From contig JANXRG010000076.1 of assembly GCA_025353105.1 (NCBI GenBank), forward strand, positions 1 through 52,866: a DNA stretch of 52,866 nucleotides, read 5' to 3'. This DNA comes from Verrucomicrobiota bacterium (lineage in GTDB: Bacteria > Verrucomicrobiota > Verrucomicrobiia > Chthoniobacterales > SZAS-18). Of the stretch, positions 5,262 to 36,454 are shown piece by piece. Position numbers and translations under genes: made by a program. The notes beneath the pieces were generated by a model. The model was not told where the DNA came from and ran no database searches. It saw only the letters and a program-made list of their open reading frames with translations. Numbering within the stretch: position 1 is the first letter of the stretch; each line of letters opens with the position of its first letter.

Positions 5262-7508
5262 CTACGCGATTGGGGTCGGAGTCGGCACCTGCGTCGGTGT
5301 CACGGTCGGAGTCGGCGTCACCGTCGGTGTCGGGGTCACGGTCGGCGTGATCGTCGGCGTAATCGTCGGCGTGGGCGTGCGCGTGGGCGTCGGTGTCGGC
5401 GTGACCGTCGGGGTATTGGTCGGCGTTGGCGTCTCCGTCACGGTCGGCGTCGGCGTCGGCGTCGGCGTAATTGTCGGTGTCTGCGTAACCGTCGGGGTGG
5501 GTGTGGGCGTCGGCGTCAGTGTCGGCGTCGGCGTCGGCGTGACCGTCGGGGTGTTGGTCGGCGTCGGGGTCTGCGTCACGGTCGGCGTCCGCGTCGGCGT
5601 CGGCGTTATGGTCGGCGTCTGCGTGATCGTTGGAGTGGGCGTGGGCGTCGACGTGGGTGTAATCGTCGGGGTGTTCGTCGGCGTCGGCGTTTCCGTTACG
5701 GTTGGCGTTTGTGTCGGCGTCGGTGTGATGGTCGGGGTCGCCGTAGCAGTCGGCGTCGAGGTGGGCGTGGGCGTGGGCGTGGGCGTGGGCGTCGGCGTGA
5801 CCGTTGGGGTGTTGGTCGGCGTCGGGGTCTGCGTCACGGTCGGTGTCTGCGTGGGCGTCGGCGTGATCGTCGGTGTCTGCGTCACGGTCGGCGTCGGCGT
5901 CGGCGTGCCCGTGGGCGTGACCGTTGGCGTCTGCGTGACGGTCGGCGTCTGCGTGACCGTCGGCGTGGACGTGGGCGTCGGTGTCTGCGTCGGCGTCGCC
6001 GTGATGGTGGGAGTCGGCGTCTCGGTCGGGGTGGGCGTCGGAGTCTGGGTGTTTACGGCCGTCGGACTCGGCGTCGGCGTCCCGGTCGATGTTGGGATCG
6101 GGGTCGGTGTGCTCGTCGGCGTGGGCGTTTCCGTTGGCGTCGTGGTGGGCGTCGGACTCGGCGTCGGCGTCGCGGTCGGCACGGGCGTTGGAGTAATCGT
6201 CGCGGTCGGAGTCGGCAGCGGCGTAAACGGCGTGTCGCCTCCACCACCGCCACGACCACGCGACGCGAGATTTGCCTTGTTGCGCAGGGCGGTTCTGACG
6301 TCGTAGTAGGTGTTGAATTCGCTCGCGGCCTGCTTGCCGGCGAGATAGCTGTCGAGGGCGTTCGTCCGGTAAAATCCCTCTTGTGCCCCTTGCGAGCGGA
6401 ATTTCAAATCGAGCAAGACTCCATCGTTGCCGGGGTCCGGCCGAAACGGTGGATTCGTCACGGTCTCGGCCACCGCCAGGTTGGGACTAAGCAAATTGTA
6501 AAGCCGGTTGCCGCTTCCATCGATCAGTTTCACCCGTCCCGGCACGCCGGTCACGGCTTGCATGCCGGAGAGCGAAATCAGATCGGTTCCAACGTCCGGA
6601 TCCAAGCCCAATTCAATCGCCGCATAAAGCGTAGGTCGTTTGACCGTGCAAAGTTGGTTCGTCCCGACTGTGCGCGCGGAGTAGGACGCGCCTAAATCGA
6701 CGGTCACGGAATAGATTGTCCCGGCAACGATGCCGACATTGGTGATGGGTGCGTCGAACAAGGGCGGATCGTCAATCGTCATGAGGTCGCCGACCCTTGG
6801 CTCGCTCATGCGCGGCTCACCGCCCAAGACCCCGATCGAGACGGTGGTCGGCGGGACCGGAGTCGGCGGTAGACTGCCCGGCCGCACATCGATGTTGAGC
6901 GTCAGCGTCGTGTCAGCCGGTACCACCGGCACAGGGGTGGTAATTCGGAACGGCTGCGGATTCAGCGGGATATTGATCACAAAACCGTTCATCCTCTGGG
7001 CACCCGGAAGAATCTGGGCATAGGCCGCTGGATTAGCCGGAAGGCCCGGGCCGACGTACACCCGCAGGTCGCCCACTGCCCAGGGTCTGTCCGGCAGGGT
7101 ACCGGCCACCGTTACCACGAAATAATCGCCGGTTTTCGCCGCCTGCTTGCCGCTCACAGGCAGGCCGGTGAACGCGTTGAAGTCATCCACGTAGCGACGC
7201 GCCGAACTGTAGGTGAGGTCCACCGCGGTCGCCGGTCCGGTTGAGGGATAGCGTGCCACCGCGACCAGCAGCGGCGCTTCCACGGAGCGGGCGACGTCGA
7301 AAGCCATTTTGTCCACCGCGCTGCGGGCCGTGCCGTGGACTTGGTTGATGGCGAGATTCTTGGCGAAGAGCGTCAAGGCGGCCTGAGCGACCACGAAGAT
7401 CACCCCGCCAATCACGACCATGATCGCCAGGCCGATCATCAACTCGGTTAACGTATAGCCCGCGGCTCGTTTCAGCAGCCGTTGGAGGAGTCCAGGAACC
7501 CTTGACAT
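5262..7508 (-). CDS. PilW-like prepilin with about 320-residue Thr-Pro tail, copy 1
   Basis: A 748-residue protein. Residues 1-17 are the leader, with [17 protein letters not shown] and Glu22 as E5, followed by a hydrophobic helix to about residue 45. The globular PilW-like part runs to about residue 415. A GGGGG linker then gives way to a tail of about 320 residues made almost only of T, P, V, I, Q and E in TPTPT, TQTPT and TPTETPTPT units. It follows the small prepilin by 24 bases and precedes the PilX-like gene. Thr-Pro tails of this kind often act as rigid, possibly O-glycosylated stalks; this is inference. An overlapping plus-strand frame is an artefact of the repeat. Confidence 0.85.
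5265..6222 (-). repeat. Thr-Pro coding tandem repeat (about 960 bases)
   Basis: The plus strand reads as GTCGGCGTCGG/GTGGGCGTC/GTCGGGGT variants throughout, with units of 6 to 18 bases and scattered synonymous changes. Coding is on the minus strand (tail of the PilW-like protein). The synonymous variation argues for protein-level selection on the Thr-Pro pattern rather than recent slippage alone. Assembly of such a region from short reads is error-prone, so the exact length should be treated with care. Confidence 0.9.
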
Positions 7509-35648: not shown

Positions 35649-36017
35649 ATGAAACGCACGTACCAGCCCTCGAAACGGTGCCGCCGGCAACAGTTCGGTT
35701 TCCGCGCCCGCATGAAGACCAAGAACGGTCGCGCGACGCTGAGCCGCCGCCGCCGCCAAGGCCGCAAGCGCCTGCTGCCAAAGGGCACCGAGTTGGAATT
35801 CCGCCGTCACAACCATTCCAATCATCCGGAAAAAGCGGGTGGCTATCAGGCGAAGGGGTGGCGAAAGCGGATTGTCCGCTCACGCGCCCGCCGCGCCGTC
35901 CGCAATGAGGTGAAGCACGGCGTGAAGCCCGTCGCCCGCGCCGCGAAGCCGAAGTCCGCCAAGGCCAAGGCGCCCAAGACGTCCACCAAGAAGACGGCCT
36001 CCACAAAGGCGTCCTGA
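35649..36017 (+). CDS. rpmH: 50S ribosomal protein L34 with long C-terminal extension
   Basis: The first 45 residues are a normal L34: [18 protein letters not shown] at the start and [14 protein letters not shown]. The frame then continues for about 77 more residues, giving 122 in total against 44-46 for usual L34. The extension contains a basic helix ([16 protein letters not shown]) and a tail of Lys, Ala, Thr and Ser ([18 protein letters not shown]). The sequence is consistently basic, so it may contact rRNA. It is followed by rnpA in the standard order. The extension's conservation is unknown. Confidence 0.9.
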
Positions 36018-36049
36018 TTGATCGCCGGAACCGGCGAAGGAGGCAGGAT

Positions 36050-36454
36050 ATCGACCTTCCACCGCCCAACGACGCGGCGGGAGCCCCGCGACCCGGCCGT
36101 CTGCGCTTTCCCCGCGCGGCACGACTGAACTTGACCGCGGAATTCCGGCGCGTACGCGCGGAAGGGCGGTCGTGGCCGGGACGCAATTTCACGCTCGCCG
36201 TGCTCGAAAACGCCGGCACCGGACCCAGCCGCATCGGCTTCATCACCACCCGCCAACTGGGCGGAGCCGTCGTGCGCAATCGCATTCGCCGGCGTCTGCG
36301 AGAAATCGTGCGCGCATCCCGCCCGCGCTTGAAAACGGCGTGCTGGATCGTGGTCATCGCGCGTTCCGCTTCGGCGCGTGCAACCTCCGACCAACTGCGC
36401 GCGGAATGGGATCGTCTCGCCGCGCGCGCGAAACTGTGGAAGGGCGTCCCCTGA
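36050..36454 (+). CDS. rnpA: Ribonuclease P protein component
   Basis: The RnpA fold is clear: [19 protein letters not shown] at the N-terminus, the RNR motif in [17 protein letters not shown], and a C-terminal helix. It binds the RNase P RNA and helps 5' tRNA maturation. In this frame there is no ATG, GTG or TTG upstream of the conserved N-terminus; the first such codon is a TTG at 36131, which would cut off the first strand. A strong AAGGAGG (36037-36043) stands 6 bases before an in-frame ATC at 36050, giving 134 residues, so I mark that as the likely start (see finding). yidD follows. Confidence 0.82.

Follow-up and report, generated by a model that had tools for sequence, protein, structure and literature searches.

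A probable ATC start of rnpA and recurrent loss of canonical rnpA start codons in Chthoniobacterales

Introduction

Where does translation of rnpA begin when its reading frame offers no ATG, GTG or TTG ahead of the conserved protein? The question is raised by the window, the whole stretch of 52,866 nucleotides analysed here, which is one contig of a 3.7-Mb draft genome in 121 contigs from a Verrucomicrobiota bacterium of the Chthoniobacterales. The gene order at the locus is rpmH (35649-36017), rnpA, and two further frames that are probably YidD-like and YidC-like. The identity of the rnpA product as the bacterial RNase P protein is certain from a whole-domain profile match (PF00825 at 95.4 bits, positions 1-108 of 109, cut-off 22.3), and nine PDB RnpA sequences match it at E<=6.3e-07. 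The features of the locus to which the argument refers are as follows.

35649..36017, + strand: rpmH (ribosomal protein L34), with a long Lys/Ala-rich C-terminal tail; TGA stop at 36015-36017
36014..36016, + strand: CTG overlapping the rpmH stop, a rival start
36019..36034 (approximate, by eye from dot-bracket notation), + strand: possible 6-bp hairpin with a GAAC loop, between the rpmH stop and the Shine-Dalgarno (SD) sequence
36037..36043, + strand: AAGGAGG, a strong SD-like sequence
36050..36052, + strand: ATC, proposed rnpA start codon, 6 nt after AAGGAGG and in the rnpA frame
36050..36454, + strand: rnpA (RNase P protein) as read from the proposed start, 134 codons plus TGA 36452-36454
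36131..36133, + strand: TTG, first canonical in-frame codon, within the conserved protein; unlikely start

The L34 encoded by rpmH in the window has 122 residues, and long forms also occur in G001, G002 and G053.

Results

A strong Shine-Dalgarno sequence precedes an in-frame ATC

The rnpA frame is open from 35909, where TGA 35906-35908 inside rpmH closes it, and contains no ATG, GTG or TTG from there to 36130, the first canonical codon being TTG 36131. No forward frame holds ATG, GTG or TTG within 36019-36130, and TTG 36018 is out of frame. The conserved RnpA stretch [10 protein letters not shown] is encoded at 36098-36127, which bears out a sequence-only reading of this DNA that had placed the conserved N-terminus upstream of the first canonical codon. 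Over the stretch that begins some 46 codons ahead of ATC 36050 and ends at the core, the in-frame near-cognates are CTG 36014, ATT 36017, ATC 36050 and CTG 36101; CTG 36125 and TTG 36131 both lie within the conserved core. AAGGAGG does stand exactly 6 bases before ATC 36050, as that reading had also claimed, the spacer being CAGGAT.

A search for 16S rRNA gave no match in this genome, which is listed as 97.6% complete, and the anti-SD sequence therefore had to be assumed; a missing 16S gene is common in metagenome bins. With the assumed anti-SD, the duplex energy at ATC 36050 is -12.2 kcal/mol, and the values at the rival sites are -3.4 (CTG 36014), -3.9 (ATT 36017) and -1.7 (CTG 36101 and TTG 36131). 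An SD as strong as that of ATC 36050 is found at 4 of the 4942 ATC/ATT/ATA/CTG positions of the window (both strands), ATC 36050 itself counted in. SD sequences are weak in the window: among its validly placed ATG starts (n=15, taken from the ORF list) the best energy is -10.6, and only three are below -5. Across 129 loci of the order, none of 80 ATG codons at -25..0 reaches an SD energy of -8, and AAGGAGG is the strongest anti-SD match of all rnpA start candidates compared. The locus thus has two features of genes with a near-cognate start, the lack of a canonical in-frame start at the point where the protein has to begin and an SD at normal spacing, and on sequence grounds we consider ATC 36050 the most likely start of rnpA, with a probability of roughly three in four.

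Gene callers restricted to canonical starts would choose TTG 36131, the first canonical codon, and a start there or at CTG 36101 would dispense with the N-terminal extension altogether. We regard such a start as very improbable, since the SD energy is -1.7 at both sites, TTG 36131 encodes residue 28 counted from the ATC, and the alignments to all nine matched RnpA sequences of solved structure already begin at residue 17-24. Initiation at TTG 36131 would also remove an Arg found in 155 of 158 loci (3 of 161 loci fall outside a pattern allowing R, K, H, Q or N). The TTG was rejected because a start there loses residues that solved RnpA structures contain and that are conserved across the order.

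The position of the start is supported by relatives

RnpA was matched in five of the seven genomes searched in the family (the window genome, G001, G002, G004 and G005) and had no match in the other two. ATC 36050 stands at codon -19 from the core Phe, and the congeners G001 and G002 have ATG at -18; G004 has GTG at -12 and ATG at -4, and G005 has GTG at -23 and a TTG at -27 that overlaps the end of rpmH. The ATC is not conserved, the other four family members with a match having ATG or GTG. In the more distant G083, a TTG lies 7 codons before GAC GCG GCG, the same spacing as the ATC here (by eye). The sequence-only reading had called for a comparison with relatives, which gives ATG one codon away in both congeners and TTG at the equivalent position in G083; these homologous positions support the proposed place of the start. 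DAA and [11 protein letters not shown]-like residues of the N-terminal extension recur in genus g7 of family f5, an argument that the extension is translated.

Residues upstream of the core could in principle be read by a frameshift from rpmH, yielding an L34-RnpA fusion, as the open frame runs through the end of rpmH and every spacer length in genus g7 of family f5 is 2 mod 3. This mod-3 pattern is, however, also expected if only the extension is translated, and an in-frame stop lies between the two genes in G001, G002 and G004. We rejected the fusion, whose probability we consider negligible, on the strength of the in-frame stops in congeners.

A more serious rival is CTG 36014, which lies in the rpmH stop overlap (CTGA) and could be reached by termination-reinitiation. 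The rnpA frame is open at this codon, a CTG also overlaps the rpmH stop in G019, G085, G057 and G078, and in G057 this CTG is the only near-cognate in 45 codons. The overlap arises simply from the last codon of rpmH having C before TGA, however, and a start there would have a weak SD (-3.4) and would leave AAGGAGG as an unused coincidence. Such an overlap is unavailable to the congeners G001 and G002, which are in phase 0 relative to the rpmH stop. We judge initiation at CTG 36014 to be improbable.

Canonical rnpA starts are lost repeatedly in the order

RnpA was found in 196 of 213 genomes of the order, and 161 of the 196 rnpA loci (129 + 32), among the matches listed, were scanned for an ATG, GTG or TTG, starting at the in-frame stop (or 45 codons upstream) and ending at the second core codon. 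No canonical start was found in 13 of the 161 loci. Two of these (G079 and G122) have their sequence cut by the locus edge, and in a third (G007) a TTG lies two codons into the core; a start there would retain the conserved Arg-Leu, so this TTG is probably a canonical start. Ten loci among the 161 listed are thereby left without one: G000, G046, G123, G019, G085, G057, G078, G014, G040 and G150. Because any GTG or TTG present by chance passes as canonical, the true number of such loci may be higher.

The near-cognates available at these ten loci differ. The window genome (G000) has ATC with an SD, and in G046 and G123 (family f8) ATC codons are the only near-cognates between the in-frame stop and the core. 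G014 and G150 offer no near-cognate but CTG; G040 has CTG plus an ATC at -41 inside rpmH; G057 has the CTG overlapping the rpmH stop; and G078 has both such a CTG (at -26) and a CTG at -2. In G019 and G085, ATT is among the near-cognates at a position where their sisters have ATG (G082), TTG (G010) or GTG (G080 and G081), as judged by eye. The closely related G078 has TTT at this position, so the ATT may not be the start in G019 and G085. The proposed near-cognate starts other than that of the window genome lack a strong SD (-2.6 or weaker, computed for all but G150). Besides the window's family, start loss is seen in three further families of the order.

As a control, ATG was found within three codons of the rpmH motif in all 82 loci where rpmH was recognised (of 129). 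Elsewhere in the class, a canonical start was lacking in 0 of 47 rnpA loci (19 + 28). Fisher tests that ignore kinship, and whose order count of 11 of 161 includes the probably canonical G007, gave p 0.018 against 0 of 82 for rpmH and p 0.07 against 0 of 47 for the rest of the class; the latter value does not establish an order-specific effect. Among 80 loci of named relatives, 68 could be anchored, the other 12 being left out as their match begins far inside the protein. A canonical start was present in 63 of the 68 and absent in five (L031, L045, L058, L068 and L078), of which L031 is apparently G150 again and L045, L058 and L078 were anchored upstream of the apparent start. The remaining locus, L068, from a member of the Bryobacteraceae outside the order, is a real miss, its RnpA frame having no ATG, GTG or TTG before the core.

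These results bear on the choice, left undecided by the sequence-only reading, between a genuine weak start and a single wrong base. A wrong base would mean that the true genome has ATG at 36050 and that the metagenome consensus is erroneous or reflects a minor variant, as might be thought from the ATG in both matched congeners and from the draft state of the assembly (121 contigs). Random errors should not, however, single out rnpA starts. Ten loci among the 161 listed have neither a canonical start nor a better alternative, and two pairs of the ten share the same near-cognate, while rpmH retains its ATG at every recognised locus. The recurrent loss thus favours a genuine weak start in the window genome, and we consider a wrong base unlikely, although it is the strongest of the alternatives. 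To us, that canonical rnpA starts have been lost repeatedly in the order is of more interest than the window case alone.

In family f6 the rnpA start appears to lie inside rpmH

Family f6 has 18 loci with a recognised rpmH, and in these no more than 10-19 nt separate the rpmH stop from the RnpA core downstream. In 17 of 19 f6 genomes, every canonical in-frame start within 45 codons is inside rpmH. The loci with an apparent rnpA start inside rpmH are as follows.

L007, L012, L020, L024, L121, L124, L137, L140, L175-L182 and L184

The overlapping GTG is created by a Gly codon of rpmH, which is GGT in 16 of 18 f6 loci versus 11 of 64 loci elsewhere (p 3e-8, kinship ignored) and versus 13 of 51 for the other rpmH Gly codons of f6 (p 3e-6, kinship ignored). 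This codon choice fits a putative rnpA start inside rpmH in f6.

Discussion

We propose that rnpA in the window genome would be translated from ATC 36050 by initiator tRNA, with the unusually strong SD holding the 30S subunit and so partly making up for a start codon that IF3 normally rejects. Lying directly behind rpmH, rnpA would share its transcript with a very abundant protein; RnpA is needed in a far smaller amount than L34. The weak start would then keep RnpA low, limiting its amount, and make it dependent on the level or fidelity of IF3, so that low, IF3-sensitive expression is to be expected from an ATC with a strong SD. A terminating rpmH ribosome might also open the fold just before the ATC, a weak element of the model. 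Initiation at ATC, the shared transcript, low output, IF3 dependence and any coupling to rpmH termination are all steps that we infer. In a reconstituted system with changed initiator tRNAs, weak third-base pairs at AUC are reported to be disfavoured as IF3 rises (PMC10158994).

With regard to the fold, the centroid structure pairs the rpmH-stop region with the bases directly before ATC 36050. The folding z-score is only -1.46, and 20 of 200 shuffles are at least as good; as the region folds little better than shuffled sequence, a regulatory role of mRNA structure is mentioned here as a remark only.

Near-cognate starts, a target of IF3, are already known for infC and sigR, and rnpA would add to them. 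According to PMC5472188, very few natural cases have been characterised: infC, encoding IF3, begins with ATT in E. coli; in Streptomyces, infC begins with ATC and sigR with GTC, the latter start being repressed by IF3. Like infC, rnpA is an essential gene of the translation machinery with a putative start of the ATC/ATT type that IF3 discriminates against, but the gene here is rnpA, so direct IF3 autoregulation would not apply. The infC of the window genome carries an ATG where one is expected, at codon -91 relative to the IF3_C match (L214 around 1228), and autoregulation of the infC type was rejected for this genome on that account. The likeness to sigR lies in a gene other than infC whose rare start would lower output relative to an operon partner. 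The sigR codon is conserved and experimentally tested, whereas the rnpA codon varies among relatives and is known here from sequence alone.

An unusual arrangement of the rnpA start against rpmH also recalls Thermus, in which, according to PMC9841429, rpmH is nested in rnpA with an AUGGAUG double start. Unlike in Thermus, there is no nesting in the window, where the rpmH ATG (35649) lies upstream of the rnpA-frame stop at 35906-35908; nesting of this type was rejected, since that TGA keeps rpmH from lying wholly inside the rnpA frame. Family f6, with its apparent rnpA start inside rpmH, is nearer to Thermus than the window is, although the Thermus geometry differs.

In the literature that we searched, mostly outside subscription journals, we found no report of a near-cognate rnpA start or of canonical rnpA starts being lost repeatedly in this order. 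The absence of the usual start in the window and in several relatives suggests that rnpA, an essential gene, may be deliberately hard to start. As a tentative and rather doubtful extension, the rnpA start in Chthoniobacterales may have been selected to be poor, with lineages independently replacing ATG by ATC, ATT or CTG or moving the start into rpmH, so that IF3 and rpmH translation would set RnpA synthesis. If true, RnpA would join infC and sigR in an IF3-controlled group, linking tRNA maturation to initiation capacity. Recurrence at one essential gene across an order would also offer natural replicates for asking whether near-cognate starts set protein level. For annotation, gene callers accepting only ATG, GTG and TTG would truncate or miss RnpA in such genomes.

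Elsewhere in the window, the minus strand at 5262-7508 carries a 748-residue frame with a very long Thr-Pro repeat tail.
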